From Ruania alba (GTDB taxonomy: Bacteria > Actinomycetota > Actinomycetes > Actinomycetales > Beutenbergiaceae): 64,000 bases of DNA. A program made the position numbers and the translations under genes. Location: assembly GCF_900105765.1 (NCBI RefSeq), contig NZ_FNTX01000001.1, positions 744,001-808,000 of the forward strand, written 5' to 3'. This document shows positions 20,818 to 35,748 of the stretch, one piece after another. How positions within the stretch are numbered: position 1 is the first letter of the stretch; the number at the start of each line of letters is the position of its first letter. The notes under the pieces were generated by a model that saw only the letters and a program-made list of their open reading frames with translations, searched no databases and was not told the origin of the DNA.

Positions 20818-20923
20818 TGCTCGCCTCCGGCTCGTCGGTTGCCGTTCATTCTGCTGGTGGGCACCGGTGGGGTCTACGCGGTTGTAGAGTGGGATGTATC
20901 ACAAGCGGCATGGAGGAGTGGAC

Positions 20924-21163
20924 GTGAGCAAGGCCGAAGACATCCTGGCGGCACTGGGTGGCGACTCGAACGTGGTCGACCTGGAGCCGTGCATCACACG
21001 TCTTCGCGTCGAGGTGACCGATCCGGCGCTGGTGGACGAGGACAACTTGCGCTCGAACGGTGCGTTCGGTGTCGTACGGTCCGGTCGGGTGGTGCAGGTG
21101 GTGGTCGGCCCGGAGGCGGACGACCTGGCCGCCGAGATCGAGGGGCTCCGCCCGAGTTCCTGA
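20924..21163 (+). CDS. PTS glucose/N-acetylglucosamine-family EIIB domain, stand-alone
   Basis: A 79-residue EIIB of the glucose superfamily. The phospho-Cys lies in LEPCITRLRV (Cys23), followed by the family's NGAFGVVRSGRVVQVVVG. GTG 20924 has a strong GGAGGAG. It is separate from any EIIC membrane domain; none is found in the window. The neighbouring EIIA and enzyme I suggest a split PTS whose permease (NagE/PtsG/MurP type) lies elsewhere. GlcNAc or MurNAc transport is inferred from nagZ-murQ nearby. Confidence 0.9.
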   Translation: MSKAEDILAALGGDSNVVDLEPCITRLRVEVTDPALVDEDNLRSNGAFGVVRSGRVVQVVVGPEADDLAAEIEGLRPSS

Positions 21164-21274
21164 CCGCCGACGACCCCCGCTTCAACGGTCGCGACGGCGG
21201 AGTCTCTGGCAGGATCGTGGGTGGCGGTTGTTGAGGGCCGCCGCACCGACCGATGGGGAGCGTTGAACCACGCC

Positions 21275-23437
21275 GTGACAGAGCAGAGCAATGACGCCTT
21301 GAGCGCCGACCTGCGCCGGCTTGCCGCTGCCCATGGGGTGGCGAGCGACTTCTGGGACTTCCACGGTGACCGTCGCGAGGTCTCACCCGCGACGGTCCGT
21401 GCCGTGCTGGCCGCGATGGGCGTGTCGGCCGACACGCCCGAGAACGTCGCAGCAGCCCTGGATGAGGCCGACCTCGCGCCGTGGCGGCGCACCCTTCCTC
21501 CGTGTGTGGTCGTGCGTAGCGGCACCGCGGGCTCGGTCGCCGTGCACGTGCCGGACGGGGCGGAGGTGCGGGCGCGGGTGGTGCTGGACGGGGGCGCTGC
21601 TCGCACCCTGACCCAGCAGGACGACTGGGTCGAGCCGCGGGACGTCGACGGGAAGCGGATCGGTCGCGCCTCGTTCGAGATCCCGGACGACCTGCCCCTG
21701 GGGTGGCACGAGATCGTCGCCGAGGTCGGTGATGTCGGGGCTCTCGCGGACGGTCGTGCCCGGGCTCCGCTCGCGGTCACCCCGGCCACGCTGGAGCTCC
21801 CGGAGCTGCGGGACCAGCTGGGCGGTCGTGCGTGGGGCCTGATGGCGCAGCTGTACTCGGTGCGATCGGCACGCTCGTGGGGGATCGGCGACTTCGCTGA
21901 CCTGACCGAGCTGACCGGGCTGGCCGGCGAAGTGGGAGCGGACTTCCTGCTGATCAACCCGGTGCACGCCGCCGAGCCGAGCCCGCCGGTCACGCCCTCG
22001 CCGTACCTGCCCGTGACGCGCCGGTTCGTCAGTCCGCTCTACATCCGCCCGGAGGAGATCCGAGAGGCGGCGTACCTGCCGAACACCCAGCGCACCCTGC
22101 TGGAGTGGGCGGCAGAGTCGGTGCAGCAGATGAATCTCGACTCCGGACCGTTGGACCGGGACGCTGCCTGGCAGGAGAAGAAGTCCGCGTTGGAGACCAT
22201 CTACGCGGCCGGGCGCTCGCGATCGCGCCAGCGCGAGCTCGACCGCTTCCGTGCCGAGCACGGCCAAGGCCTGGAGGACTTCGCCCTCTGGTGCGCCGTG
22301 AAAGAGACCTACGGCGACGATGAGCGACCCTGGCCGCTCACCGAGGACGCCACTCCGGCGGCACTGACCGCGCTGCGCCGCGAGCTCGCCGACCGGGTGA
22401 ACTTCCACTGCTGGTTGCAGTGGATCGCGGACGAGCAACTGGCCCGCGCCCAGCGGATCGCCCGCGCGTCGGGAATGCGGGTCGGGGTGATGCAGGATCT
22501 CGCCGTGGGTGTGCATCCGGCAGGCGCCGACTCGTGGTCGATGCGGCACGTGCTCGCCCGTGGGATCTGTGTGGGCGCCCCACCGGACATGTACAACCAG
22601 CAGGGGCAGAACTGGTCGCAGCCACCATGGCGACCGGACGCGCTGGCCGAAGCCGGGTACGCACCGCTGCGGGACCTGGTGCGGACCGTGCTGCGGCATG
22701 CCGGCGCGATCCGCGTCGACCACATCATCGGTCTGTTCCGGCTGTGGTGGATCCCTGATGGCGCAGGTGCCGACGAGGGCACCTATGTGACCTATGACCA
22801 CGAGGCGATGGTGGGAGTGCTGGCGCTGGAGGCCCACCTGGCGGGCGCCGTCGTGATCGGGGAGGACCTGGGCACCGTTGAGCCCTGGGTGCGCGACTAC
22901 CTCAGCGAGCGCGGTGTGCTCGGCACCTCGGTGCTCTGGTTCGAGCAGGCCGACGGCCGCCCACTGCCCGCCGAGGACTACCGCGAGCTGGTGCTGGCCA
23001 CGGTCACGACCCACGACTTGCCGCCGACCGCCGGGTACCTGGCCGAGGAGCACGTCGATCTCCGTGAACGCCTCGGCCTGCTCACCGAACCGGCCGCCCA
23101 GGTGCGCCTGGCTGCCAGGGTCGAGCGGGAACGGATGCTGGACGCCATGCGCGAGCGGTTCCTGCTGCCATCGGATCCCACCGAGCGGCAGATCGTCGAG
23201 GCGTTGCACCGCTACATCGCCCAGACGCCGTCGGTGCTCGTCGGTGTCTCGCTGGCCGACGCAGTGGGGGAGCGGCGCGCACAGAACCAGCCGGGCACCG
23301 ACACCGAGTACCCGAACTGGAAGATCCCGCTCGCCGACGGCGGTGAGCAGGTGGTGCTCGTGGAGGACCTGCCCGGGAATGCCCGGTTCGCGTCGTTGGT
23401 TACCGCGATCACCCACGAGCTGGCCGAACGGGCCTGA
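21275..23437 (+). CDS. malQ: 4-alpha-glucanotransferase (amylomaltase)
   Basis: A GH77 enzyme of about 720 residues that transfers maltodextrin segments. Visible GH77 landmarks include WGLMAQLYSVRSARSWGIGD, the acid/nucleophile regions IRVDHIIGLFRLWWIP and VIGEDLGTVEP, and TVTTHDLPPTAGY. The actinobacterial N-terminal extension of about 180 residues is present. Start is uncertain: GTG 21275, TTG 21263 (better spaced GGGGAG) or GTG 21221. It is followed 6 bases later by the EIIA gene. Confidence 0.92.
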   Translation: MTEQSNDALSADLRRLAAAHGVASDFWDFHGDRREVSPATVRAVLAAMGVSADTPENVAAALDEADLAPWRRTLPPCVVVRSGTAGSVAVHVPDGAEVRARVVLDGGAARTLTQQDDWVEPRDVDGKRIGRASFEIPDDLPLGWHEIVAEVGDVGALADGRARAPLAVTPATLELPELRDQLGGRAWGLMAQLYSVRSARSWGIGDFADLTELTGLAGEVGADFLLINPVHAAEPSPPVTPSPYLPVTRRFVSPLYIRPEEIREAAYLPNTQRTLLEWAAESVQQMNLDSGPLDRDAAWQEKKSALETIYAAGRSRSRQRELDRFRAEHGQGLEDFALWCAVKETYGDDERPWPLTEDATPAALTALRRELADRVNFHCWLQWIADEQLARAQRIARASGMRVGVMQDLAVGVHPAGADSWSMRHVLARGICVGAPPDMYNQQGQNWSQPPWRPDALAEAGYAPLRDLVRTVLRHAGAIRVDHIIGLFRLWWIPDGAGADEGTYVTYDHEAMVGVLALEAHLAGAVVIGEDLGTVEPWVRDYLSERGVLGTSVLWFEQADGRPLPAEDYRELVLATVTTHDLPPTAGYLAEEHVDLRERLGLLTEPAAQVRLAARVERERMLDAMRERFLLPSDPTERQIVEALHRYIAQTPSVLVGVSLADAVGERRAQNQPGTDTEYPNWKIPLADGGEQVVLVEDLPGNARFASLVTAITHELAERA

Positions 23438-23443
23438 ACAGCG

Positions 23444-23902
23444 ATGACTCTGCATGTGAGCGCTCCCGTGGCCGGAGCGGTGCTGCCGCTGAGCGAGGTA
23501 CCGGACCCGGTCTTCGCCCAGGAGATCGTCGGGCCCGGGGCCGCCATCGATCCTGCTGCCGGCCCGGACGTGGTGGATGTGGTGGCGCCGGTGCAGGGGC
23601 GCATCCTCAAGCTGCACCCGCACGCCTTTGTGGTGGTGAGCGGGTCCGGGCAGGGTGTGCTCGTCCACCTCGGCATCGACACGGTGCAGCTGGCCGGTGC
23701 CGGGTTCACCCTGCACGTGGCCGAGGGGGACCAGGTGGAGGTCGGGCAGCGGATGGTCACCTTCTCGCCCCGGGAGATTGCCGACGGCGGCCGCTCGCCC
23801 GTGTGCCCAGTGGTCGCCTTGGACGCCACGTCCGGTCAGGTTCGCGTCGTGGGAGCCGGTGTGCTGGACACCGGCGATCCGCTGCTGGAGTGGAAACCGT
23901 GA
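23444..23902 (+). CDS. crr: PTS glucose-family EIIA (Crr-like)
   Basis: A 152-residue IIA domain of the glucose superfamily. The phospho-His is in VLVHLGIDTV (His75) and the second active-site His is His60 in LHPHAFVV; the PVAGAVLPLSEVPDPVFAQ opening is characteristic. It lies directly after malQ and may be read from the same message, coupling glucan metabolism with PTS phosphorylation. Its EIIB partner is the small gene before malQ. Confidence 0.93.
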   Translation: MTLHVSAPVAGAVLPLSEVPDPVFAQEIVGPGAAIDPAAGPDVVDVVAPVQGRILKLHPHAFVVVSGSGQGVLVHLGIDTVQLAGAGFTLHVAEGDQVEVGQRMVTFSPREIADGGRSPVCPVVALDATSGQVRVVGAGVLDTGDPLLEWKP

Positions 23903-24039
23903 CGAACCTGTAACTCCGTATCAATGACAGCCTCGACGCGGCTAGATACATTGGAGTACAAGTTGAGTCGGCCGATGGCGGAGACCCCGCATTGGCGGCC
24001 CAAAGTCCAGCAGCGTTCCTCCAGCGAAGAAGGCACGAC

Positions 24040-25578
24040 GTGTCAGCACCACTCCTTGAGGTCGAGGGAATCAGCAAGAGTTTTCCCGGCGTCCGCGCAC
24101 TCCATGACGTGCAGTTCCACCTCGCCGCCGGCGAGGTCCTCGTGCTCGTCGGCGAGAACGGCGCCGGCAAGTCGACCCTGATGAAGATCCTCTCCGGGAT
24201 CTACCAGCGTGATACCGGCGCGATCCGAGTGGACGGCGAACCGGTCGAGATCTCCGGGCCTGCGATCGCGCAGCAACTCGGGATCAGCATCATCCACCAG
24301 GAGATGAACCTGATGGCCGACCTGACCGTGGCGCAGAACATCTTCATCGGTCGTGAACCCCGCGTGGCTGGGGTGCTGAACGAGCGTGCCCTGAACGCTC
24401 AGACGGGCGAACTGCTGGAGCAGCTGGGGATCGGCCTTGACCCGCGTGCGCGGGTCGGAGATCTCACCGTCGCCACTCAGCAGATGGTCGAGATCGCCAA
24501 GGCGCTCTCGTTCAATGCTCGAGTGCTGATCATGGACGAGCCCACCAGTGCCCTCACGGACACTGAGGTGGAGACCCTGTTCGGCCTCATCGAGAGCCTC
24601 AAAGAGGGCGGCACCGGGATCATCTACATCTCGCACCGGATGGAGGAGCTGAAGCGGCTCGCGGATCGCGTCACCGTGCTGCGCGACGGTGAGTACATCG
24701 GTGACCTGGAGCGTGCCGAGATCGACGTGCCAACCATCATCGAGATGATGGTCGGTCGCCAGATCGACGAGGGCGCCCGGCCTGTCTCGAGCGAGCACGC
24801 CCGCGACGAGGTGGTGCTCGACGTGCAGGGCCTGTCTACCAAGGCGTTGCTCGACGACGTCTCCTTCCAGCTGCACCGGGGCGAGATCCTCGGCTTCGCC
24901 GGGCTGATGGGCGCCGGCCGCACCGAGACGGCCCGTGCGATCATCGGCGCGGACCCGCGCTCCGCCGGAACGATCACGGTGCACGGGCGGCAGGTCCACA
25001 TCTCTCAACCCGCCGACGCGGTCCGGCACGGCATCGGCTACCTCTCCGAGGACCGCAAGGCGTACGGGCTGATGCTTGAGCAGGACGTCTCTTTCAACAC
25101 CGTGCTGGCGTCGATGAAGAATTTCACCGGCCCCTTGGGGTACTTCTTCGACGGGAAGGCGCGCCGGGTCGCGCAGACCTTCGTCGATCGCCTGCGAACG
25201 AAGACCCCCTCCACGTCGCAGCAGGTGAAACTGCTCTCGGGCGGCAACCAGCAGAAGGTGGTCATCGCCAAGTGGCTCGCCCGCGACTGCGACATCCTCA
25301 TCTTCGACGAACCCACCCGTGGGATCGACGTCGGCGCCAAGGAGGAGATCTACCGGCTCCTGCAGGGCCTGGCCGCGGACGGCAAGTCCATCATCGTCAT
25401 CTCCAGCGAACTGCCGGAGGTTCTCCGGCTCTCCCACCGGATCGTGGTGATGGCCGAGGGCCGGATCACCGGCACGCTCGCCAACGAGGACGCCAGCCAG
25501 GCCACGATCATGGACTACGCCACTCACCTGGCTGCGGATGTGACCGCCGCAGCCGATCACACGCGAGGAGCAGCATGA
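24040..25578 (+). CDS. Sugar ABC transporter ATP-binding protein, RbsA-like
   Basis: A 512-residue duplicated ATPase of the ribose/xylose/galactose importer family. The first domain has Walker A GENGAGKST and a degenerate signature, as usual for RbsA; the second has a degenerate P-loop region GLMGAGRTE and the signature LSGGNQQKVVIAKWL. GTG 24040 with AAGAAGG upstream fits the family start. The TGA overlaps the permease ATG (ATGA). The upstream 137-base gap carries a CCTGTAA half-site resembling the GntR operator candidate found near the catabolic genes. Confidence 0.92.
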   Translation: MSAPLLEVEGISKSFPGVRALHDVQFHLAAGEVLVLVGENGAGKSTLMKILSGIYQRDTGAIRVDGEPVEISGPAIAQQLGISIIHQEMNLMADLTVAQNIFIGREPRVAGVLNERALNAQTGELLEQLGIGLDPRARVGDLTVATQQMVEIAKALSFNARVLIMDEPTSALTDTEVETLFGLIESLKEGGTGIIYISHRMEELKRLADRVTVLRDGEYIGDLERAEIDVPTIIEMMVGRQIDEGARPVSSEHARDEVVLDVQGLSTKALLDDVSFQLHRGEILGFAGLMGAGRTETARAIIGADPRSAGTITVHGRQVHISQPADAVRHGIGYLSEDRKAYGLMLEQDVSFNTVLASMKNFTGPLGYFFDGKARRVAQTFVDRLRTKTPSTSQQVKLLSGGNQQKVVIAKWLARDCDILIFDEPTRGIDVGAKEEIYRLLQGLAADGKSIIVISSELPEVLRLSHRIVVMAEGRITGTLANEDASQATIMDYATHLAADVTAAADHTRGAA

Positions 25579-26579
25579 CTGACAGCACGCAGGTCGCGGT
25601 AGAGGAGCAGGACACCGCTCGTACCGGCCATGGCGCCACTGTGCGAGCATGGCTGCAGCAGGGGCTCGCATTCGGCAGCCTCCTCGTGCTTGTGGTGTTC
25701 TTCGCCATCGCCAGCGACAATTTCTTCACCTGGTCCAACATCTCCGGTGTGCTGCTCGCCACCGCGGTGATCGGCATCCTGGCCCTGGGCACCACCTTCG
25801 TGATCACCACTGCCGGCATCGACCTCTCCATCGGCACCGGGATGACCCTGTGCGCGGTGATGACGGCGGTGGTCGCGGTGAACTGGGGCCTCGGTCTGGT
25901 TCCTGGAGTGCTCGCCGGCCTCGCGATGGGTGCTCTGATGGGCTTTGTCAACGGTGTGAACGTGGCGTATTTCAAGCTTCCGCCGTTCATCGCCACGCTG
26001 GCGATGATGCAGGTGGCGCAAGGTCTCGCGCTGGTCATCTCCGACGTCTCCCCGATCTACTTCTCGGAGATCCCGGCCTTCAAGAACATCGCGCTCGGGA
26101 CGGCACTCGGTAGCCTGCCGAACGCGGTGCTCATCATGTTCGTCCTCGGTGGGATCGCCTATTTCATGCTCGGGAAGACCCAGTTCGGGCGCTTCACCGT
26201 GGCGATCGGGTCGAACGAGGAGGCCACCCGTCTTTCCGGCGTGAACACCCGCCGGTGGAAGGTGATCATCTACACCGTCGCCGGGATCTTCACCGGGATC
26301 GCCGGCGTGGTCATCGCCTCCCGGCTCGGGTCGGCCCAGCCCCAGCTCGGTGTCGGGTACGAGCTGCAGGCGATCGCCGCCGTCATCATCGGGGGCACCT
26401 CGCTCCTCGGCGGGCGCGGCACCATCGTCGGGACGCTGATTGGCGCCCTGATCATGAGTGTGCTGATCAACGGCCTGCGCATCATGTCCATCCAGACCGA
26501 GTGGCAATACGTCGTGCTGGGTGTGGTGATCGCGATTGCGGTGCTCGCCGACTCCTTGCGCAGTCGCAAGGGCAGATGA
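25575..26579 (+). CDS. Sugar ABC transporter permease, RbsC-like
   Basis: A 334-residue membrane protein with about 8-10 hydrophobic segments. GTTFVITTAGIDLSIGTGMT, the family-defining IDLSIG block, and the EAA-like loop AIGSNEEATRLSGVNTRRWK identify an RbsC/XylH-type permease. It overlaps rbsA by 4 bases and is followed after 160 bases by the binding-protein gene. Sugar specificity cannot be read from the permease. Confidence 0.93.
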   Translation: MTDSTQVAVEEQDTARTGHGATVRAWLQQGLAFGSLLVLVVFFAIASDNFFTWSNISGVLLATAVIGILALGTTFVITTAGIDLSIGTGMTLCAVMTAVVAVNWGLGLVPGVLAGLAMGALMGFVNGVNVAYFKLPPFIATLAMMQVAQGLALVISDVSPIYFSEIPAFKNIALGTALGSLPNAVLIMFVLGGIAYFMLGKTQFGRFTVAIGSNEEATRLSGVNTRRWKVIIYTVAGIFTGIAGVVIASRLGSAQPQLGVGYELQAIAAVIIGGTSLLGGRGTIVGTLIGALIMSVLINGLRIMSIQTEWQYVVLGVVIAIAVLADSLRSRKGR

Positions 26580-26739
26580 ACGCCGGCACTGCCATCCACG
26601 CAGACTCGGGCGCCGGTTCCTGTGCAGGACCGGCCTCGTCGTCGACCACGCGTCGACCCCTAGCGGTACCTGCGGGTATCGGGCACAGTCCGCAATCCAG
26701 CGGCCGGACCTACCGGCCGGAGAGCTATGGAGGCCTTGT
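26580..26739 (+). other. Stem-loops between permease and binding-protein genes
   Basis: This gap holds an imperfect hairpin at 26612-26634 (GCCGGTTCCTG with CAGGACCGGC) and a perfect GGCCGG/CCGGCC stem at 26702-26718, just before the ribosome-binding GGAGG. Such elements often stabilise the downstream part of importer messages and raise binding-protein levels; that role here is inference. Confidence 0.5.
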
Positions 26740-27744
26740 ATGAAACTGACCAGGAAGAAGTTCGGCGTCGCCGCAGCTTTGGCTGCCGCGCTGGCCGTCG
26801 CGGGCTGCTCCGACAGCGGTGACGGTGGCACCACCGACGGCGGTGACGGAGGCGGTGACGCCGGAGGAGACGCCCTGCAGATCGCGCTCGTCTCGAAGGG
26901 CTTCCAGCACCAGTTCTGGCAGGCCGTCGAGCAGGGCGCCCAGGAGGCCGCCGACGAGCTCGACGTGGAAGTGACCTTCGAGGGACCGGCCGCCGAGACC
27001 GAGGTGGACGCTCAGCTGCAGATGCTGCAGGCTGCTATCGACCGGAGTCCGGACGCGATCGGCTATGCCGCTCTCGACCCGGAGGCGTGCGTGCCGTTGT
27101 ACGAGGCGGCCGAAGCCGCCGAGATCCCGGTGGTCGAGTTCGACGCTGGCTGCGACAGTGACTACGGGCAGAACCTGGCCGCCACCGATGGTGTGGCCGC
27201 CGGCGCTATCGCCGCCGAGCACATGGCCGAGATCATCGGCGGTGAAGGGCAGGTCGGCATCGTCGGTCACAGCCAGATCAACTCCACCGGTGTCGAGCGC
27301 CGAGACGGGTTCGTCAACGAGATCGAGGAGAACTGGCCCGACATCGAGATCGTCGACATCCAGTACGGCGACGGTGACCACCTGCGTTCCTCCGACATCG
27401 CCAAGGCGATGATCGCGGCGAACCCGGACATCGCGGGCCTGTACGGCACCAACGAGGGCTCGGCGATCGGCATCGTGAACGCCGTCAACGAGCTCGGTCT
27501 GGCACCCGGGGAGATCACCATCGTCGGCTTCGACTCCGGCTCCGCCCAGGTGGGCGCGATCGAGAGCGGTGTGATGGCGGGTGCCATCACCCAGGACCCG
27601 ATCGGCATCGGCCGCACCGTGGTGGAGAACGCCGTGGCCGCGATCAACGGGGAAGAGCTCGAGGAGTTCACCGACACCGGTTCCTACTGGTACGACTCCT
27701 CCAACCTGGAGGACCCGGAGATCGCCCCGCTGCTGTACGAGTGA
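26740..27744 (+). CDS. Sugar ABC transporter substrate-binding lipoprotein, RbsB-like
   Basis: A 334-residue periplasmic-binding-protein family I member. The N-terminus MKLTRKKFG plus a hydrophobic stretch ends in the lipobox VAGC (Cys23), then a Gly/Asp-rich linker, so it is a membrane-tethered lipoprotein. The fold starts at LQIALVSKGFQHQFWQAVEQGAQ and carries ITIVGFDSG near the end, typical of RbsB/XylF. GGAGG precedes the ATG. With the two upstream genes it makes a complete importer; the adjacent catabolic cluster probably handles the imported sugar. Confidence 0.93.
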   Translation: MKLTRKKFGVAAALAAALAVAGCSDSGDGGTTDGGDGGGDAGGDALQIALVSKGFQHQFWQAVEQGAQEAADELDVEVTFEGPAAETEVDAQLQMLQAAIDRSPDAIGYAALDPEACVPLYEAAEAAEIPVVEFDAGCDSDYGQNLAATDGVAAGAIAAEHMAEIIGGEGQVGIVGHSQINSTGVERRDGFVNEIEENWPDIEIVDIQYGDGDHLRSSDIAKAMIAANPDIAGLYGTNEGSAIGIVNAVNELGLAPGEITIVGFDSGSAQVGAIESGVMAGAITQDPIGIGRTVVENAVAAINGEELEEFTDTGSYWYDSSNLEDPEIAPLLYE

Positions 27745-27764
27745 GGGTGAGCTGAGGCACCACG

Positions 27765-27805
27765 AGCGCCAGCCCTCCGCGACCCGATCGCGGAGGGCTG
27801 GCGCT
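27765..27805. terminator. Bidirectional terminator after the sugar importer
   Basis: A perfect 17-bp inverted repeat (AGCGCCAGCCCTCCGCG and complement) with a 7-base loop separates the binding-protein gene from the convergent phosphotriesterase-like gene. Confidence 0.85.
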
Positions 27806-28777
27806 TCAGTGTGCCCAGGTGAGGAGCTCGCGCGGGTTCTGCACCAGGATCTGGTGCACCGCATCCGCGCCGATGCGTGCTTCCAGGCGTGGCAGATACC
27901 GACGGCCGAGGTAGGCGAGACCGGGCATCCCGCCGTAGGCCAGGTAGCGGGAGGCCCGCGCCACATCTGCGCCGAGCACGATCCGCGTGCCCCCAGCGGC
28001 GAGCACTGCCTCGGTGAGGTCGATCAGGGCCGCGTCACTGTGGTTGCGCGCACGGGCCGCGCCGTCATAGCCCAGATATGCCCCGCGCGCGATCAGCTCG
28101 ACGTGCAATCCCGGATCGAGCAGCCGGTCCGCGTGCGCGAGCATCACCCGGTACGGGGCCACCCCGCACCGCACGAGCAGGTCGAGCAGCTCGTGCGCAG
28201 CAGTGCAGTGCTCCAGATGCACCATCACCGGCGCGCCCGTCTCGCGGTGCACTTCTCCCGCGGCCTCCAGGGTGCTCCGCTCGAATCCGGAGATGCTCCA
28301 GTACCCGATCCCGCACTTGATCAGCCCGGCCCGTACGTCGGCCCCCTGCGGGCCGACGGCCCGCTCGGTGGGGTGGGTGACGTCGTCGGAGATCGGCATC
28401 GCTTCGGTGAGGTCGCGCCGGAACAGGGCGGTACGCTTGGCGACGCTCACCGTGTGCATGGGGTGACCGGCAGGGTAGTGCGCCTCGCGGTGCACCCCGG
28501 TGGAGGCCACCACGGTGAGCCCGACGGCAGCGCTGATCCGAGCCACGTCGGCGGGCCGCCGGCCCAGGCCGATCGGGGTCGCGTCGATCATCGCGGTGAA
28601 GCCGCTCTCGACCAGGTCGGCTGCTTCGGCCTGGGACAGCTCCGGATCGTCCAGGTCGTCCCCGGGCAGCAGCGGTGAGACCTGGAACAGGTGCTCGTGC
28701 GTGTTCGTCGCGCCGAGCGTGGCCGGGTCGACGTCGCCCAGCACGGTACGGATGGTTCCGGCGGTCCCGTTCGTCAT
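27806..28777 (-). CDS. Phosphotriesterase-family amidohydrolase/lactonase
   Basis: A 323-residue PTE-family metal hydrolase. Metal ligands visible: HEH in GATNTHEHLF, the carbamylated-Lys candidate in RAGLIKCGIGYW, His in VMVHLEHCTA and LAHADR, and Asp in VLGADVAR. Several characterised PTE relatives in sugar clusters hydrolyse sugar (phospho)lactones, so lactonase is more plausible than true phosphotriesterase. It is the last gene of a same-strand run of five catabolic genes that starts at the GntR-type operator, and begins four bases after the AroE-like gene. Confidence 0.85.
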   Translation of the reverse strand: MTNGTAGTIRTVLGDVDPATLGATNTHEHLFQVSPLLPGDDLDDPELSQAEAADLVESGFTAMIDATPIGLGRRPADVARISAAVGLTVVASTGVHREAHYPAGHPMHTVSVAKRTALFRRDLTEAMPISDDVTHPTERAVGPQGADVRAGLIKCGIGYWSISGFERSTLEAAGEVHRETGAPVMVHLEHCTAAHELLDLLVRCGVAPYRVMLAHADRLLDPGLHVELIARGAYLGYDGAARARNHSDAALIDLTEAVLAAGGTRIVLGADVARASRYLAYGGMPGLAYLGRRYLPRLEARIGADAVHQILVQNPRELLTWAH

Positions 28778-28781
28778 GGCC

Positions 28782-29699
28782 TCAGCGTGCCTCGTGCGCC
28801 GCCCGGGAGAGCTCGGCCACCAGCTCCGGCGTCATCGGCACGCCGAAGACCTCACCGATCACCTGGGTCCAGCCGTGGATGAAGTAGCGCCACCCGTCCA
28901 CCACCGTCAATGCCCGGGTTTCCTCCTGGGCCTGCGCCTGGGCGAGGAACTCGAGGCTGCCGCGGTAGTTGAACTCCCACACGGAACCACCCTCGGGGAA
29001 GGCAGCGCCGTCCGGGACCGGTGAGCCGGGCCGATCCTTGCCCAACCCGGAGGCGTTCACCACCAGGCTCCCGGGCGCGGCGGAGGCGAGCACGGTCGCC
29101 GTCGTCTCCGCCGACGCGACCCGCAGGTCCAGCAGGTCGCCCGGGGTACCGCGGGTGGCGTGCACCTGAGCCAGGTGCTCCAGACGTTCGGCACTGGTGT
29201 CGGTCACCACGATGCGGCGTGGAGCGTCGCTGCGCTCGGCCAGGGCCCAGGTCAGCGCCAGGCCGGCGCCTCCGGCGCCCAGCACGACGGCGTCCCGCAC
29301 TGAGGAGAAGCCGTCACCCGGCCAGAACTCCTCCAGGGCGAGCCGCGCGGTCAGCGGGTCCTTGGCGTGCCCGAGCAGCTGTCCGTCTCGCTTGGAGATG
29401 CTCGAGATCTCCCCGCACGCCCGGGCGAAGTCGTCGAGGTCGTCGAACAGGTCGGCAGCGGCTGCGTGCAGGCGTACCTTGTGCGTGGTCACCAGGGCGC
29501 CGAGATGACCGGGGTCCGCGGCGATCTCGGTCACCAATTCCCGGTACGCCTGGATGGAGGCGTCCATCGGCAGGTCGTGGCCCTCGAGATGGCGGGTGGG
29601 CAGGCCCAGCAGGTCCGCCCACACCGGGAAGATCCGCATGATCGACGACTCCGCCGTGGAGACGCCCACGAAGCCCATGTGTCCGGACGTGCTGGTCAT
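28782..29699 (-). CDS. AroE-like shikimate dehydrogenase family oxidoreductase
   Basis: A 305-residue AroE-fold enzyme. The N-terminal substrate domain has VSTAESSIMRIFPVWADLLG and the catalytic-Lys position in ALVTTHKVRLH; the NAD(P) domain starts with VVLGAGGAGLALTWAL. It differs from housekeeping AroE in its long insertion and in sitting in a sugar cluster, so it probably oxidises a polyol or sugar acid rather than shikimate. ATG 29699 overlaps the previous stop by one base (TGATG); a GTG one codon earlier is also possible. Confidence 0.8.
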   Translation of the reverse strand: MTSTSGHMGFVGVSTAESSIMRIFPVWADLLGLPTRHLEGHDLPMDASIQAYRELVTEIAADPGHLGALVTTHKVRLHAAAADLFDDLDDFARACGEISSISKRDGQLLGHAKDPLTARLALEEFWPGDGFSSVRDAVVLGAGGAGLALTWALAERSDAPRRIVVTDTSAERLEHLAQVHATRGTPGDLLDLRVASAETTATVLASAAPGSLVVNASGLGKDRPGSPVPDGAAFPEGGSVWEFNYRGSLEFLAQAQAQEETRALTVVDGWRYFIHGWTQVIGEVFGVPMTPELVAELSRAAHEAR

Positions 29700-30694
29700 C
29701 ACCTGCTCCGTTCTGTGTGCCCCTCGTCGGGGTCGAAGGTGTTGAGGGGGTGCGGCGGGACCGTGCCGGTCAGCACAGCGAGGGTGTTGTCGACGGCCAT
29801 CGTGCCCATCGCGTCCACGGCCTCGACGGTCTGGGCGCCCACGTGGGCCGTGACGGTCACCTGGTTCGCGAGTGCGGGGTCCAGCAGGGGCGAGGCGGTC
29901 GCGGCGGTGTCTCCCACGAGGGAGTCCGCGGCGTAGGCGCGCACCCGCCCGTCCCGCAGGGCCGCGGCGAGGGCGGGCTCATCCACCAGGTCGGCCCTGG
30001 CCGTGTTCACCAGCACCATCGGCCCGGGCACCGTAGCCAGCCACGCGGCGTCGACCAGGGTCTGACCGCCAGGAGCGTGCAGTGAGAGCACGTCGCACCG
30101 GGTGGCCATCTCCTCGAACGTGCAGGACTGCGCATCAGCGCTGGTCAGTTCATTGAGGTCGCTGTCGGTGAGGAATGGGTCGACGACGAGCACTCGGGAG
30201 CCGAAACCGCTGAGCCGGTCGGCCACACCGCGGCCGATCCGGCCGAAGCCGACGATCCCGACCGTCGCGGTGCCCAGTTGGCTGCCGCGGTCGGTCCGCC
30301 AGTCCCCGCCCCGCACCCGTCGGTCGCTCGCCGCGGTTCCCCGCAGAGCCGCGAGCATGAGACCGACGGCATGGTCGGCCACGGCGGCGGAGTTCGCGCC
30401 CGGGGTGTTGGTGACCGTGATCCCGCGTGCAGTGGCCGCTTCGATATCCACCGACTCCGCACCGACGCCATAACGCGCCACCACGCGCAGGTGCGGGGCG
30501 GCATCCAGGTGCGCGGCGGTGACGGGGCCGGTGCCGGCGATCCACGCGTCCGCGTGGGCGAGGTGGCCGGTGAGGGCGTCCAGGTCGTGGTCGCTACCGG
30601 CGCGGACGATCCGGTGCCCGGCGGCGGTGAGCTCGTCCGCAAGGGCACGGTTCCCGGAGCCGAAGGACCGGCTGGTGACGAGGATGGTTGCCAT
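29699..30694 (-). CDS. D-2-hydroxyacid dehydrogenase (SerA-like)
   Basis: A 331-residue NAD-dependent 2-hydroxyacid dehydrogenase. The Rossmann motif is VGIVGFGRIGRGVADRL, the substrate Arg is in VNTARADLVDEPAL, and the catalytic His lies in VTVTAHVGAQT. It resembles phosphoglycerate dehydrogenase but lacks the C-terminal ACT domain, which fits a catabolic role on a sugar acid. The TGATG overlaps at both ends show tight coupling with the kinase before and the AroE-like gene after. Confidence 0.87.
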   Translation of the reverse strand: MATILVTSRSFGSGNRALADELTAAGHRIVRAGSDHDLDALTGHLAHADAWIAGTGPVTAAHLDAAPHLRVVARYGVGAESVDIEAATARGITVTNTPGANSAAVADHAVGLMLAALRGTAASDRRVRGGDWRTDRGSQLGTATVGIVGFGRIGRGVADRLSGFGSRVLVVDPFLTDSDLNELTSADAQSCTFEEMATRCDVLSLHAPGGQTLVDAAWLATVPGPMVLVNTARADLVDEPALAAALRDGRVRAYAADSLVGDTAATASPLLDPALANQVTVTAHVGAQTVEAVDAMGTMAVDNTLAVLTGTVPPHPLNTFDPDEGHTERSR

Positions 30695-32184
30695 CAGCGT
30701 GCTTCCTTTCCCCACGGGGCCAGCTGCGCGTAGGCGGCCTCGAACCTGCCCAGGCGCTCGCGGTACTCGCCGTGTCGGGTCCCGTGCGGCGTGAACTCCG
30801 CGGTCACCGTGGACAGCCTCGCGGCGACGTCGAAGTCGTCGGCCAGGCCGAGCCCGACGGCACCGACCACAGCGGCGCCAAGGCTGTTCGCCTCTTCCAC
30901 CACGGTGTGTCGACGTACCGGCACGCCCCACACGTCGGCCAGGATCTGCAACCAGGTATCGCTCGCCGCGCCGCCCCCGACAGCGTCGATGCTCTCGATC
31001 GTGGCACCGGCGGTGCGGAACGCCTCGAGGCACACGGCGAGGTTGAACGCGACTCCTTCGAGCACAGCGCGCACCAGGTGCTCCCGGCCGTGGTGGCGAC
31101 CCAGGCCGATGAAGGCACCGCGCGCGTCCGGGTCCCAGCGCGGGGAGCGTTCGCCGAGCAGGTAGGGCAGGAAGTACAGGTCACCGGTGGGGTGGGAGGT
31201 ATCGGCGGCGGCGACCAGGTCGGTCAGCGTCCGCCCCGACGGGGTGGGGGAGAGCACCTCGTTGATCCACTGCACCGATGCGCCGGCCGATTGCATGGTG
31301 GCGGTGGGCACGTACCGGCCCGGCACCACGTGGTCGAAGGTGAAGGTACGCATGCTCGGGTCGAGCACGGGCGTGTCGGCGGCGAACGAGATCCAGCTGG
31401 ACGTGCCCAGGCATACGTACGCGCCGTCGTCGGGCCCGCACACTGCGGCACCGACGGCGGCGATCGGACCGTCACCTCCGCCCATCACCACCCGGGTGCC
31501 GGCCGGCAAGCCGGTCGCGGTCGCGGCCGAGGCGGTGAGCGTGCCCACGACCTCGGTCGAGGACACGATCTCGGGGAAGAGTGCGGCGTCCAGACCGGCT
31601 GCCTCGAGCACTGCGGCCGACCAGGTGCCGGCACGCTGGTCGTAGGCGTTCGTCGCGGACGCGTCGCTGGGGTCAGTGGCCAACCGTCCGGTGAGGCGAT
31701 GCACCACGAAGTCCTTCGCCACACAGAAATGACGGACCCGGGCGAAGACGTCCGGCTCGTTGTCGCGCACCCACATCACCTTCGCGACCGAGTAGGTCGG
31801 GTTCAGGCGATGCCCGAGCAGCGCGTAGGCCTCCTGAGCGCCGATCCGCTCGATGAGCTGGTCGGTCTGCGCACCCGCCCTCGTGTCGGCCCAGATGATC
31901 GCCGGGCGGACGGGCTCGTACTGCTCGTCCAGCAGCACGGCGCCCATCATCTGGCCGCTCACCACGAGCCCGCTGATGGCGTCCGGCGCCGTGCCGGTGG
32001 ACGTCAGCAGGGACCGGGTTGCCTCGACGACGGCGCGCTCCCAGTCCCGGGGGTCCTGCTCCGCCAGCCCGCCCTCGCCGAAGTGTGCGGGGTAGCCGAC
32101 GGTGACGCTGCTGAGCATCCGACCGTCGTCGGCGTGCAGGGATGCCTTATTGCCGGTGGTGCCGAGGTCGTGCGCGATGAGCAT
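30694..32184 (-). CDS. FGGY-family carbohydrate kinase (xylulokinase-like)
   Basis: A 496-residue FGGY kinase. It opens LIAHDLGTTGNKASL (phosphate-1 loop), has the substrate/catalytic region MGGGDGPIAAVGAAV, and the adenosine motif AVGGGAASDTWLQILADV. It is nearest XylB-type kinases in length and layout, but FGGY substrate ranges are wide and the true sugar or polyol is unknown. ATG 32184 begins one base after the cupin gene's stop. Confidence 0.87.
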   Translation of the reverse strand: MLIAHDLGTTGNKASLHADDGRMLSSVTVGYPAHFGEGGLAEQDPRDWERAVVEATRSLLTSTGTAPDAISGLVVSGQMMGAVLLDEQYEPVRPAIIWADTRAGAQTDQLIERIGAQEAYALLGHRLNPTYSVAKVMWVRDNEPDVFARVRHFCVAKDFVVHRLTGRLATDPSDASATNAYDQRAGTWSAAVLEAAGLDAALFPEIVSSTEVVGTLTASAATATGLPAGTRVVMGGGDGPIAAVGAAVCGPDDGAYVCLGTSSWISFAADTPVLDPSMRTFTFDHVVPGRYVPTATMQSAGASVQWINEVLSPTPSGRTLTDLVAAADTSHPTGDLYFLPYLLGERSPRWDPDARGAFIGLGRHHGREHLVRAVLEGVAFNLAVCLEAFRTAGATIESIDAVGGGAASDTWLQILADVWGVPVRRHTVVEEANSLGAAVVGAVGLGLADDFDVAARLSTVTAEFTPHGTRHGEYRERLGRFEAAYAQLAPWGKEAR

Positions 32185-32185
32185 G

Positions 32186-32662
32186 TCAGCCGCCGTAGGG
32201 CCGCAACTCGAAGGCATCGCCGGTGCGGTAGGCGCGCGCGCCCATCCCGTGCTCCAGCACCCAGCCATAATCATGCCCGGCGCTGCCCGGGTAGACCGCG
32301 AGGAAAGAGTAGGCATCGTCGCCGACGTTGACCGAGCGGTGCGCCCAGCCCGGTGGGATGTAACCGATGGTGCCCGGGGTCATGTCGAGCCACCGGTGCT
32401 CGTCGCCGTCGAACATCAGCAGCCCGCCGGTGCCGTGCAGGGCTAGATAGATCTCGCCTTGCGGGTCCGGGTGTTGGTGCCCCTTGGTCATCCACAGCTC
32501 GCCACCGGTGGCACCGGCGGAGATCGTGGTGATCGACTGCGGCAGCTCCCGCGGCGTCTCCGGAACCGGTGAGGACTGCACCCGGTACACCACCGGGTCG
32601 CCGTCGGCAACGGCTGCCTCCCAGGCGGCGTGGTCGAGGAACAGGCCCTCCAGGTCACTCAT
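32186..32662 (-). CDS. Cupin-type glucose-6-phosphate isomerase-like protein
   Basis: A 158-residue cupin resembling the archaeal-type phosphoglucose isomerase. TKGHQHPDPQGEIYLAL supplies the HxH and Glu metal ligands, PGTIGYIPPGWAHRSVNVGD the last His, and the tail YPGSAGHDYG is characteristic. Homologues have about 30 more N-terminal residues; these are encoded just upstream in another frame, so the gene looks frameshifted. ATG 32662 overlaps the upstream fragment's TGA (ATGA) and could still give a nearly complete cupin. Substrate in this cluster may be a pentose or other aldose phosphate rather than glucose-6-phosphate. Confidence 0.82.
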   Translation of the reverse strand: MSDLEGLFLDHAAWEAAVADGDPVVYRVQSSPVPETPRELPQSITTISAGATGGELWMTKGHQHPDPQGEIYLALHGTGGLLMFDGDEHRWLDMTPGTIGYIPPGWAHRSVNVGDDAYSFLAVYPGSAGHDYGWVLEHGMGARAYRTGDAFELRPYGG

Positions 32663-32760
32663 CCGCCGTTCCAGGGTCGGACCCTCGGGGTCAGCGTGGC
32701 GGCGTCATGGTCGAAGGTGATGGCGAACGGGGCCAGCGGGGTGGGGGCGAAATCAGGCAC
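32659..32760 (-). pseudogene. Frameshifted N-terminal segment of the cupin isomerase
   Basis: A 33-codon frame starts at GTG 32760 with GAGGAG upstream and reads PLAPFAITFDHDAATLTPR before diverging; this matches the N-terminal strand of archaeal-type phosphoglucose isomerases as I remember them. After about position 32680 the family sequence continues in the frame of the downstream cupin, where GPTLERRMSDLEGLF can be read. One missing G in the GGG run at minus-strand AGGGTCC would join the two. So this is probably the true start of the cupin gene, split by a one-base deletion or a sequencing error. Confidence 0.65.
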
Positions 32761-32814
32761 GGGGGCTCCTCGCAATGGTGACGTGCTCGTCGTCGAGCGG
32801 CTCCTGTCACCGTA

Positions 32815-32828
32815 CCTGTAATTACAGG
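32815..32828. promoter_or_regulatory. Perfect palindrome CCTGTAATTACAGG, probable GntR operator
   Basis: A 14-bp perfect palindrome lies between the gntR gene's 3' end and the start of the catabolic gene run, 55 bases upstream of GTG 32760. Its AT-rich core and position suit a GntR/HutC dimer, and the linked GntR-UTRA regulator is the obvious binder. A degenerate copy sits at 35030-35043. Confidence 0.65.
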
Positions 32829-32842
32829 CTGTTGCTAGCGTT

Positions 32843-33628
32843 TCAGTGCGTTCCGGAGGTGTGCAAGATCGTGCTGCGCGGCTCGCTGGCCCGCAGCTCG
32901 AACTCGAAGCGGCTGCGATCACCGCGGTGCAGGGCACGGAAGTACTCGATCGGCCGCCCGGCTGCGTCGAATGTCACCGAGCCCAGGCTGAGCACCGCCT
33001 TGCTCGGGCCGGTGCCGAGCAGCTGCCCCTCACGCGCGTCCGTGACCGTCGCCTCGACGGACCGGACTCCCGACGTGGGGCGCACGCCGCGCTCGCCGAG
33101 GGCGGCGTACAGGGACGATTCGGTGAAGTCGACCTCGGCGACCAGTTCACCGATGGATTCGGGCATCCAGGTGATGGTCAACGACCACGGCTCATCATCG
33201 ACGAAGCGCAACCGCTCGAGCACCACCACGGGGGTACCGGGGGCGCACAGCAGATGGTCGGCCACATCGGTATCGGCGGGCACGGTCTCCAGGCGCAGCA
33301 CTCGGCTGCGCACCTGGCCGCCACGTGCGGTGACCTCCTCGTGCAGACCGGTGAGCCGATGGGCCAGGGCCTCCGCGGTTTTGCCCCGTGCCACGAAGGT
33401 GCCCTTGCCCTTCACCCGGGTGATCATGCCGTCGTGCTCGAGCTGGCCGAGAGCCTGGCGCACGACCGTGCGCGACACGCCGTACATCTCGCACATCTGC
33501 ATCTCGCCGGGCAGCCGGTCACCGGGACCGAGGGACTCGGAGTCGATGGTGGCCAGGATCGCGCGACGGAGCTGGTCGTACATCGGCAGGGCGGACTCAC
33601 GGGTGATGGCTGAGCTGCGGTCACTCAT
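32843..33628 (-). CDS. GntR-family regulator with UTRA ligand domain
   Basis: A 261-residue HutC-type repressor. The wHTH covers about residues 15-85 (LPMYDQLRRAILATI, MCEMYGVSRTVVRQALGQLEHDGMI, GKGTFVAR), and the UTRA effector domain follows, with WSLTITWMPESI and RPIEYFRALHRGDRSRFEF. UTRA domains usually bind the pathway sugar or a phosphorylated intermediate. It overlaps rbsD by one base as the third gene of rbsK-rbsD-gntR, and palindromes flank this block on both sides. Confidence 0.9.
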   Translation of the reverse strand: MSDRSSAITRESALPMYDQLRRAILATIDSESLGPGDRLPGEMQMCEMYGVSRTVVRQALGQLEHDGMITRVKGKGTFVARGKTAEALAHRLTGLHEEVTARGGQVRSRVLRLETVPADTDVADHLLCAPGTPVVVLERLRFVDDEPWSLTITWMPESIGELVAEVDFTESSLYAALGERGVRPTSGVRSVEATVTDAREGQLLGTGPSKAVLSLGSVTFDAAGRPIEYFRALHRGDRSRFEFELRASEPRSTILHTSGTH

Positions 33629-34032
33629 CAGTAGTCGACTCCGGCGATCAGGGCCACGTTCGCGTATGGCGTGTACTCGCCGGTCCGGACGAACGCGCGC
33701 GCCCCGGTCGAGCGCTGTTTGTACTGCACGTGCGGGATCAGTTGGACCTCGATGCCGTGCGGGTCCAACCGGTCCTGGACGGCGCGCAGCATCTGCGGGC
33801 TCACCTCGGCCACCTCGGCAGGCATCACTGCCCCTTCGATGACAATCTCGGCGAGGATCACGTCCAGCACGTCCAGGAACGGAGGCTGGCCTTGGCGGTA
33901 GGCGAGGTCGACCCGTTCCGCACGGGGTGGGATCGGCAGCCCGGCGTCGGCGACGAACAGTTCGTCGGTGTGGCCCAGCTCGGAGATGATCCGGCTCAGC
34001 TGCGGGTGGATGGTGGTGCGGCTCTTGCGCAT
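33628..34032 (-). CDS. rbsD: D-ribose pyranase (RbsD family)
   Basis: A 134-residue mutarotase-like protein. The catalytic-type His lies in ISELGHTDELFVADAGLPIP and the C-terminus IAGVDY is diagnostic for RbsD/FucU. It interconverts pyranose and furanose forms of the sugar, feeding the kinase. ATG 34032 with GGGAGA upstream overlaps the rbsK stop by one base; its own stop overlaps the GntR start. Confidence 0.92.
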   Translation of the reverse strand: MRKSRTTIHPQLSRIISELGHTDELFVADAGLPIPPRAERVDLAYRQGQPPFLDVLDVILAEIVIEGAVMPAEVAEVSPQMLRAVQDRLDPHGIEVQLIPHVQYKQRSTGARAFVRTGEYTPYANVALIAGVDY

Positions 34033-34988
34033 CAGATCTCCCTGTTCTGTCGGTCCAGGAGGGCGTCGACCTCGCTCGCCGCCGGCAGGCTGGGTGAGGC
34101 GCCGCGCTTGGTGACGGCCAGAGCGCCGGCCGCGGCCGCTCGTCGGATTGCAGTGTCCCGGTCGTGTCCTGCCGCGATCGCCGCCGCGAGGTGCCCCGCG
34201 AATGCGTCGCCGGCAGCGGTGGTGTCCACCACCTCCACCCGGATCGGTGGGTGCAGGCGGGTCTCGTCGGCGCTCACCAGGACGCTTCCGGCGCCGGCGA
34301 GGGTGATCAGGGCGGCGCCGACCCCACGGTCGACGAACCATCGCCCGGCAGCTTCGGCGGACTCAGGGCCATTGACCTCGATGCCGGTGAGGAGGGCGGC
34401 CTCGGTCTCGTTCGGTGTCACCAGGTTGACCAATGGCCAGATGTCCTCGGGCAGTGGTTGTGCGGGAGCAGGATCGAGCACCACGGTCAGGCCCTCGGCG
34501 TGCGCGCGCCGGATGGCGTGCAGGGTCAGCGCGATCGGTATCTCCAGCTGGGTCAGCAGCACGGCACTGCTGGCGGCGTGCTCGGTGAAGGCCTGGTCGA
34601 TCTGCGCGGTGTCCAGGGCGGCGTTCGCCAGCGGAACCATCACGATGTCGTTCTCACCCGAGGCGTCCACCCGGATGTGCGCCACCCCGGTCTGGCCCGG
34701 GACGGAGCGGACGTGGCTGATGTCCACGCCGGCGTCCCGTAGACCGTCGGTGACCAGGTGCTGGAACAGGTCCGAGCCGACGCATCCGACCATCCGTGCG
34801 GCCGCCCCGGCGCGGCCGGCAGCCACGGCCTGATTCGCACCCTTGCCCCCCAGGACCAAGGTGAACGCATCGCCGAGGAAAGTCTCCCCAGGGCGTGGCA
34901 GTCTGCTGGAGAAGGTCGTGACGTCCGCCGTGATCGAGCCGACGATGAGCACACCGCCCTGGGCCGCCGGTGTCGGGTTCTCGGTCAT
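34032..34988 (-). CDS. rbsK: Ribokinase-like PfkB carbohydrate kinase
   Basis: A 318-residue PfkB kinase. LVLGGKGANQAVAAGRAGA near residue 46 and the anion-hole/catalytic-base motif VDTTAAGDAFAGHLAAAIA fit ribokinase, as does the monovalent-cation region near the C-terminus. ATG 34988 is the family start. Together with RbsD and the importer it suggests ribose or a ribose-like sugar, although the FGGY kinase in the other arm leaves open two substrates or two phosphorylation steps. Confidence 0.9.
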   Translation of the reverse strand: MTENPTPAAQGGVLIVGSITADVTTFSSRLPRPGETFLGDAFTLVLGGKGANQAVAAGRAGAAARMVGCVGSDLFQHLVTDGLRDAGVDISHVRSVPGQTGVAHIRVDASGENDIVMVPLANAALDTAQIDQAFTEHAASSAVLLTQLEIPIALTLHAIRRAHAEGLTVVLDPAPAQPLPEDIWPLVNLVTPNETEAALLTGIEVNGPESAEAAGRWFVDRGVGAALITLAGAGSVLVSADETRLHPPIRVEVVDTTAAGDAFAGHLAAAIAAGHDRDTAIRRAAAAGALAVTKRGASPSLPAASEVDALLDRQNREI

Positions 34989-35029
34989 CTGGCTCCTCGC
35001 GGGATGGTCGTCGTTGACTGGGGCATGCA

Positions 35030-35043
35030 CCTGTCATTACATT
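35030..35043. promoter_or_regulatory. Degenerate second copy of the GntR operator palindrome
   Basis: CCTGTCATTACATT matches 11 of 14 positions of the perfect palindrome at 32815-32828, keeping CCTGT.ATTACA. It lies between the divergent rbsK (start 34988) and aldolase (start 35098) genes, so one site could control both transcripts. Confidence 0.55.
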
Positions 35044-35097
35044 ACCCGGGCCTGGCCCCATCCCCCACCCCGTCCCCCACCCCGTGAGAGGGAATCC

Positions 35098-35748
35098 ATG
35101 AGCGCACCGCGCCTGTACGTCGACTCCGCCGACCCGGAGGCCGCCGCCCCGTTGCTCGCCAGTTCACTGGTGTACGGCGTGACGACGAACCCCACGATCC
35201 TCGACCGTGCCGGCCGCACGGCCGGGGAGATCCCCACGCTGTACGAGACCTGGGCCGCTGCCGGTGCGCGGGAGATCTACTTCCAGGCCTGGGGTGGCGC
35301 CGAGGACCTGCTTGAGCAACGTGCTCGGGACATCCTCGCCCTGGGGGACTTGGCCGTGGTGAAGGTACCCGCCACCCGGGCGGGCTTCGCCGTCGGGGCC
35401 CGTTTGGCGCGGGAGGGCGCACCGGTGCTGCTGACCGCGGTGACCACCCCCGCGCAGGCGCTGGCCGCCGTCAGTGTGGGCATCCGATACCTGGCGGCCT
35501 ACCTGGGCCGGATGCGGGACGCGGGTTTCGACGCGCTCACCGAGATCGCCCGGATGCAGGCCATCTGCGCCGGCACCGACACGAACGTGCTCGCGGCCAG
35601 CCTGCGCACCCCCGAGGACGCGGTCGCGCTCGCGGAGGCAGGGGTGCCGTACGTGACCGCGGCGCCGGAGATCCTCTGGGGCATGCTCGACCACGAGGCT
35701 ACCGACGCCGCGGCAGCCGCCTTCGAGGCGGCCGATTCCGTCCAGTAG
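35098..35748 (+). CDS. Transaldolase/fructose-6-phosphate aldolase-like (FSA/TalC)
   Basis: A 216-residue class I aldolase of the short transaldolase family. LYVDSADPE at the N-terminus, GVTTNPTILDRAG, the Schiff-base Lys in LAVVKVPATRAG and NVLAASLRTPEDAVALAEAG are family signatures. FSA-type enzymes join or split dihydroxyacetone and aldehydes, suggesting a final C-C cleavage for the cluster's sugar; this is inference. It is divergent from rbsK and shares the second operator candidate. Its stop lies 7 bases from the convergent pepN stop. Confidence 0.87.
   Translation: MSAPRLYVDSADPEAAAPLLASSLVYGVTTNPTILDRAGRTAGEIPTLYETWAAAGAREIYFQAWGGAEDLLEQRARDILALGDLAVVKVPATRAGFAVGARLAREGAPVLLTAVTTPAQALAAVSVGIRYLAAYLGRMRDAGFDALTEIARMQAICAGTDTNVLAASLRTPEDAVALAEAGVPYVTAAPEILWGMLDHEATDAAAAAFEAADSVQ

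Follow-up and report, generated by a model that had tools for sequence, protein, structure and literature searches.

A stretch of 64,000 nucleotides from Ruania alba (contig NZ_FNTX01000001.1, positions 744,001 to 808,000; hereafter the window) encodes, at positions 23,903 to 35,748, an rbsACB-type importer, an rbsK-rbsD-gntR set, an FSA-like aldolase, and a five-gene arm comprising a GPI-type cupin isomerase, an FGGY kinase, a D-2-hydroxyacid dehydrogenase (2-HADH), an AroE-like dehydrogenase and a PTE-family hydrolase. That these genes form one system is well supported; many soil bacteria have it, as do rhizobia with one of the enzymes replaced. We tentatively propose that they constitute a single GntR-controlled regulon, in which a sugar is imported by a CUT2 transporter and degraded through phosphorylating and oxidizing steps. 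Probable substrates are a pentose, ketopentose or pentitol taken up by the same importer as L-fucose. One regulon is favored over two ordinary modules because of gene linkage and a likely shared operator; the same evidence, including the joint presence of arm and importer in 53 of 66 loci, bears out an initial annotation of this DNA that had assigned both sides of the locus to one system.

Gene content and conservation

Profile searches confirmed all 12 genes named in the initial annotation and their positions. In window coordinates, the locus contains:

24040..25578, plus strand: rbsA, CUT2 ATPase (best NCBIfam model RbsA, 575.6 bits, under its cut-off of 745)
25575..26579, plus strand: rbsC, RbsC-type permease (PF02653, 149 bits)
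26740..27744, plus strand: rbsB, RbsB-type solute-binding protein, probably L-fucose-type by context (PF13407, 175 bits)
27761..27811, no strand: hairpin at the 3' ends of rbsB and the PTE gene (22 pairs, 19 unbroken; -44.9 kcal/mol, z -9.5)
27806..28777, minus strand: PTE-family metal hydrolase, proposed phospho-lactonase (PF02126, 107 bits; nearest PDB sequence 3pnz)
28782..29702, minus strand: AroE-like NAD(P) dehydrogenase (shikimate dehydrogenase models, at most 46.2 bits)
29699..30694, minus strand: 2-HADH, resembling phosphoglycerate dehydrogenase (PF02826, 134 bits; nearest PDB entry the phosphoglycerate dehydrogenase 1ygy)
30694..32184, minus strand: FGGY kinase, xylulokinase family (TIGR01312, 395.2 bits, over its cut-off of 380.25)
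32186..32662, minus strand: GPI-type cupin isomerase (PF06560, 65.7 bits; archaeal phosphoglucose isomerase 1j3p, 137 bits)
32815..32828, no strand: likely operator CCTGTAATTACAGG, a perfect 14-bp palindrome
32843..33628, minus strand: gntR, GntR/HutC-type regulator with UTRA domain (PF00392 and PF07702, over gathering scores)
33628..34032, minus strand: rbsD, RbsD pyranase (mutarotase; NF008761, 140.6 bits, over its cut-off of 93)
34032..35030, minus strand: rbsK, RbsK-type PfkB kinase (TIGR02152, 297.3 bits, cut-off 299.65)
35030..35043, no strand: second operator-like site CCTGTCATTACATT at the rbsK/FSA promoters, with three mismatches to the 14-mer
35098..35748, plus strand: FSA/transaldolase-family aldolase (PF00923, 92 bits; TIGR00875, 89.9 bits against 245.95)

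Successive genes of the arm overlap or lie 1 to 4 bp apart, and rbsK, rbsD and gntR overlap their neighbors by single bases. The 180-bp gap between gntR and the cupin ATG contains the palindrome. The locus had been described as two divergent arms, but rbsACB and the operon ending in the PTE gene are convergent, and the only divergent pair is FSA and rbsK. The hairpin between the convergent rbsB and PTE genes is likely a two-way terminator. Upstream, at 19138-23902, lie genes resembling ptsI, malQ and PTS EIIA (named by eye); the malQ and EIIA queries from this region were not among the matches listed for the arm loci.

Conservation was examined in the best 80 of 128 AroE-like relatives from a GTDB genome scan (loci L055-L134; AroE identity 49-73%). 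Many of these loci come from Microbacterium species and hence are not independent; Micrococcaceae, Micromonosporaceae, Thermomonosporaceae, Nocardioidaceae and Geodermatophilaceae are also represented. Linkage was counted in the 66 untruncated loci, with at least 7 kb on either side, using identity cut-offs chosen after inspection of a first table of locus matches, from which matches covering less than 30% of the query were dropped and in which only those of at least 28% identity were shown. In this neighborhood comparison, of the kind that the initial annotation had recommended, all five arm genes occur together in 63 of the 66, and the importer joins them in 53. The order GPI-FGGY-HADH-(Eda)-AroE-PTE, in three variants, is found in 59, and 2-HADH is linked in 64 of these loci, which were picked by their AroE-like gene. 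Such linkage is far beyond chance. FSA is an optional member of the system (18/66); an aldolase of the 2-keto-3-deoxy-6-phosphogluconate (KDPG) type is linked in 23/66 and a fuconate-type dehydratase in 40/66. The suggestion that the route might end in FSA cleavage is therefore not supported, and FSA was rejected as a general closing step.

Closer to the window genome, the arm is rare. The AroE-like gene is present in 1 of 24 genomes of the family, that one being the window's own. In the class, where searches scored at most seven candidates per genome and counts are lower bounds, at least 34 of 296 genomes encode an AroE-like protein, at least 16 of them (own included) at E <1e-20. Among 16 stretches from this search (AroE identity 34-70%), all five genes are present at good identity in L039, L040 and L041, and in L045 with a weak 2-HADH; L042 and L043 keep the AroE-like and PTE genes, L046 lacks the kinase and holds the other four at low identity, and in L047-L054 the AroE-like gene occurs without the arm. 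These results tie the arm to close relatives of the AroE-like protein and not to its wider family. The arm is accessory in this family. In a tree, the window's AroE-like protein falls inside an Agrococcus/Microcella clade (support 100/99), although Microbacterium and the window genome are assigned to separate families. This placement and the absence from the 23 other family members suggest horizontal gain.

The PTE/AroE-like/2-HADH/GPI set of L046 (L046:163-12943) lies among DUF2620 (YhfU), YhfX-like and other genes that resemble the yhf operon of E. coli, an operon with no established role.

Likely operator and importer

At up to two mismatches, the palindrome CTGTAATTACAG has 148 matches across L055-L134; in 140 of these it stands ahead of the cupin, the importer (or its divergent neighbor) or rbsK/FSA. 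Thirty shuffled-half control palindromes averaged 7.6 matches (maximum 55), and 0.7 in those promoters (maximum 10). Of 71 loci with a GPI gene, 64 have a site ahead of it, and rbsK/FSA is preceded by one in 10 of 17. A scan of 25 chosen genomes gave 27 perfect sites, spread over 18 genomes, with 20 of the sites within arm loci by coordinates, compared to four sites for a backwards control motif; three of the seven outside arm loci were inspected (L206-L208) and stand among unrelated genes. None of the 13 importer loci that lack the arm has a site ahead of the importer.

Within the window, the 14-mer at up to three mismatches has two matches, equalled in 6 of 100 shuffles, and CTGTMATTACA at up to one mismatch has three (the palindrome counted twice), equalled in 0 of 100; CTGTCATTACA at 35031-35041, in the rbsK/FSA promoters, matches the latter motif exactly. 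The window alone thus gives mixed evidence, and the cross-locus comparison carries the case that the palindrome is likely the operator of the GntR regulon. Apart from the two window sites, operator-like sites in the own genome were dismissed as chance, there being seven at up to one mismatch, the same as for the backwards control. In one further locus (L205:3869-10613, genome G211), the operator precedes a CUT1-like sugar importer with Gfo/Idh-, zinc dehydrogenase-, aldo-keto reductase- and GH1-like neighbors (most families assigned by eye).

Orthologs of RbsB (E <=1e-60) occur in at least 20 of 296 class genomes. A fuconate-type dehydratase is found in 8 of the 13 importer loci without the arm, seven of these with an aldo-keto reductase, and a GH29 alpha-L-fucosidase in three more (11/13 in total); the remaining two have neither by the queries used. 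The GH29 assignment exceeds the Pfam score. The dehydratase, mutarotase, reductase and FAH hydrolase all fall under curated NCBIfam cut-offs, their L-fucose names being our reading, and the isomerase-like gene is under the Pfam fucose isomerase scores. Given these neighbors, the importer is most likely L-fucose-type and probably not a ribose transporter. RbsB itself scores 79.7 bits on the ribose RbsB model (cut-off 337), with allose and rhamnose models higher but likewise sub-cut-off. The earlier argument that the locus serves more than ribose use is borne out by this score and by the importer context, and ribose was rejected as the substrate.

On its other contig, the window genome carries an aldo-keto reductase, SDR, FAH and fuconate-type dehydratase set (L165, G000:C2:1281600-1286500), the dehydratase at 71-72%. 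No importer ortholog was found in the 20 kb examined there, and the window rbsACB may serve this set. D-arabinose has the L-fucose configuration. As sole substrate it was provisionally set aside, since an arm-bearing species, Microbacterium arabinogalactanolyticum (L114), is reported to have a D-arabinan locus with its own isomerase and kinase (PMC10509167), which makes the arm unneeded for it there.

Enzymes and the proposed route

The FGGY kinase fits the XylB-type model (395.2 bits) well above LsrK (182) and L-fuculokinase (121, cut-off 471), and reads GQMM where GQMH is usual. The cupin passes PF06560 (65.7 bits against a gathering score of 20.7) with GHQH as its GHxH metal motif at residue 61. 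The AroE-like protein misses the shikimate dehydrogenase equivalog level (at most 46.2 bits, cut-offs at least 200). K75 and D115, the catalytic Lys-Asp pair of AroE, are conserved in all 20 aligned relatives. In the nucleotide fold, the second strand is followed by an acidic residue, D168 (16/20); the window's 2-HADH has an aspartate at the equivalent place of its GxGxxG motif.

The PTE-family protein (135.7 bits to its best PDB relative) shares H27, H29, K154, H187, H215 and D271 with 22 of 22 aligned orthologs, the residues of the binuclear metal site of the family. Basic residues recur at 242 (R/K, 22 orthologs), 244 (R/K, 20), 274 (R, 22) and 277 (R, 20); in the alignment with 3pnz the first three stand opposite basic residues and 277 opposite a tyrosine. 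In the phosphofuranose lactonase Lmo2620, residues at such positions bind the phosphate. The FSA-like aldolase has the VKVP (Schiff-base lysine region) and TTNPT motifs but misses the TIGR00875 cut-off. Models for G6PDH, 6PGL, 6PGDH and EDD found no matches among the window's arm proteins.

An autoinducer-2 (Lsr) system was rejected on the kinase scores and a binding protein weak to LsrB. An ABM-domain protein, reminiscent of LsrG, occurs in 24 of 96 loci (19 of the 66 untruncated; L080, L083, L105 and others). Its gene lies within 400 bp after the PTE gene in 19 of 22 loci with both. It is present without a linked KDPG-type aldolase in 20 of the 80 loci and together with one in three.

The N-terminal stretch of the window's cupin (32663-32766) lies in another frame directly upstream, where a stop overlaps the cupin ATG, and relatives have more than 25 further residues in frame ahead of the conserved start motif in at least 42 of 59. 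The window cupin is either frameshifted, misread, or started at an internal ATG. Elsewhere, a divergent GPI cupin (~34% to the window's) replaces the usual one in 19 of the 80 loci (L071, L091, L128 and others), often on the opposite strand; 15 loci have an operator-like site ahead of it.

Among Pseudomonadota, a variant arm is present. The AroE-like protein was found on 15 plasmid records, all of this phylum by name (44-49% identity in the 10 listed). Linked genes in the nine loci examined are those for a GPI cupin and an MBL-fold hydrolase (all nine), 2-HADH, FGGY and a CUT2 permease (eight each), a KDPG-type aldolase (seven), and a HAD phosphatase and a glycerol-dehydrogenase-type enzyme (six each); PTE is linked in none. 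The MBL-fold protein (60.7 bits against 144 on the sole NCBIfam model met) is a putative lactonase. Because this unrelated protein fills the place of PTE in 9/9, a hydrolase seems to be needed. A Sinorhizobium locus also encodes an FGGY kinase and a GolD/DthD-family dehydrogenase over its cut-off. In one Microbacterium locus (L103:11900-13631), a complete PTE-type arm has next to it both a second AroE-like gene and an MBL hydrolase of the rhizobial type.

Other variants differ in import or accessory enzymes. The arm occurs with other CUT2 importers in L096, L106, L123, L124, L126 and L134, none of which matched the fucose-gene queries. SDR genes stand beside it in L045, L067 and L118, and a zinc dehydrogenase gene is near it in L041 (complete arm) and L130 (partial). 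Polyol-dehydrogenase-like genes are linked in some variants, and in other loci the AroE-like gene occurs together with FGGY kinases from different subfamilies (29-38% identity).

We infer the order of steps, the sugar 5-phosphate and the products as follows. The FGGY kinase, or RbsK, would produce a sugar 5-phosphate, and the GPI cupin would interconvert its ketose and aldose forms. The AroE-like NAD enzyme would act on the furanose, giving a 1,4-lactone phosphate by oxidation, which the PTE enzyme would open to the aldonate phosphate. 2-HADH would then oxidize C2, and an aldolase, KDPG-type where linked and otherwise housekeeping, would cleave the product. For a 5-phosphate to form a 1,4-lactone the sugar must be a pentose, and this suits the xylulokinase-like kinase. 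A kinase and a dehydrogenase combined with a metal hydrolase that can be replaced agree with dehydrogenase-lactonase chemistry acting on phosphorylated sugars, and in Pseudomonadota the HAD phosphatase and glycerol-dehydrogenase-type enzyme would suit a two-carbon phosphate product. The enzyme mix, as had been noted from the window, points to an oxidative route; no description of this gene set was found in open-access literature searches, most subscription papers lying outside their reach.

With somewhat more reserve, we suggest that this route, in two phyla, may rebuild the logic of the upper oxidative pentose-phosphate/Entner-Doudoroff pathways with enzymes of unrelated families that act on the phosphate of a sugar other than glucose. 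An AroE-type sugar-phosphate dehydrogenase would be among them, and one step would fall to lactonases that are unrelated to each other, PTE in Actinomycetota and an MBL-fold protein in Pseudomonadota. If so, a gene set that recurs among soil and plant-associated bacteria represents one uncharacterized catabolic pathway, AroE-type enzymes gain a role in sugar oxidation, and two unrelated lactonases substitute for each other. Annotation would also be corrected in many genomes, where parts are labelled shikimate dehydrogenase and phosphoglycerate dehydrogenase, as in the Pseudomonadota records.

Several observations weigh against a single oxidative regulon. The KDPG-type aldolase is absent from the window (distant genome copies share 39% and 32%) and linked in 23/66 loci; such aldolases normally need a 3-deoxy acid, and the core set has no dehydratase. 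We know of no AroE enzymes that make lactones, and the PTE protein scores 109.1 bits on the phosphofuranose-lactonase model NF045706 (cut-off 630). The frame change may mean that the cupin gene is impaired. Importer and arm are also found apart, as are AroE-like gene and arm in the class search. The operator precedes the importer in 34 of 57 loci, and the window rbsA promoter has half sites only.

That last point would suit a ribose system (rbsACB, rbsK, rbsD) standing beside an unrelated five-gene operon, as would an RbsD that reaches the ribose pyranase equivalog level, an RbsK just short of its own, the 10 of 66 loci where the arm lacks this importer, and the importer loci that have no arm. 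We nevertheless consider two such modules highly improbable: arm and importer usually travel together, a common operator precedes arm, importer and rbsK/FSA in relatives, RbsB is far under the ribose model, and importer orthologs accompany L-fucose-type genes. The importer context and the fuconate-type dehydratase genes in 40 of 66 arm loci could instead point to a second L-fucose route, with the cupin forming L-fuculose, the FGGY kinase fuculose 1-phosphate, and the FSA-like enzyme cleaving it. This is quite doubtful, as it leaves the AroE-like, PTE and 2-HADH proteins without a role and a ketose 1-phosphate cannot give a lactone. Moreover, FSA is infrequently linked, the arms with other importers lack fucose-query matches, and the kinase fits xylulokinase rather than L-fuculokinase.

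The near-constant 2-HADH (64/66), set against a KDPG-type aldolase in 23/66, raises another reading, in which one dehydrogenase oxidizes and the other reduces the same carbon of an aldonate phosphate, so that its configuration is inverted and an unusual sugar becomes a pentose-phosphate intermediate, the aldolase being a side enzyme. We regard it as rather unlikely, since the acidic residue in both nucleotide folds suits NAD and oxidation in both, and KDPG-type aldolases recur in both phyla. A single GntR regulon with an oxidative route remains our preferred explanation.

Comparison with known systems

The locus shares the CUT2 importer, RbsD and RbsK families with the ribose operon rbsDACBK. 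It differs in an RbsB and RbsA under ribose cut-offs, five additional enzymes, an L-fucose-type importer context, and a GntR-UTRA regulator in place of RbsR, which is LacI-type. Non-phosphorylated L-fucose oxidation (dehydrogenase, lactonase, fuconate dehydratase, SDR, FAH hydrolase) has the importer in common with this system and is often encoded in the same locus, but it works on unphosphorylated acids and is a separate gene set, similar to that on the window genome's other contig.

D-threitol and other small-polyol pathways use the DthD dehydrogenase and FGGY kinases, and in this they resemble the Sinorhizobium locus with its GolD/DthD-family dehydrogenase and FGGY kinase. However, no 1,4-lactone can arise from a tetrose 4-phosphate, and to our knowledge no tetritol pathway combines a GPI cupin, an AroE-like enzyme, 2-HADH and a lactonase. 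The phosphofuranose lactonases (Lmo2620-type, Mycoplasma Ms0025/Mag6390) have the PTE family, metal-site residues and aligned basic residues in common with the window PTE, which is nonetheless far under the NF045706 cut-off.

Finally, the upper oxidative pentose-phosphate pathway proceeds through GPI, G6PDH, 6PGL and then acid oxidation. The arm differs from this and from the Entner-Doudoroff pathway in its AroE, PTE (or MBL) and D-2-HADH families and in having no dehydratase. Its proposed logic of isomerase, dehydrogenase, lactonase and acid oxidation would be the same, and some arm loci also share the KDPG-type aldolase.

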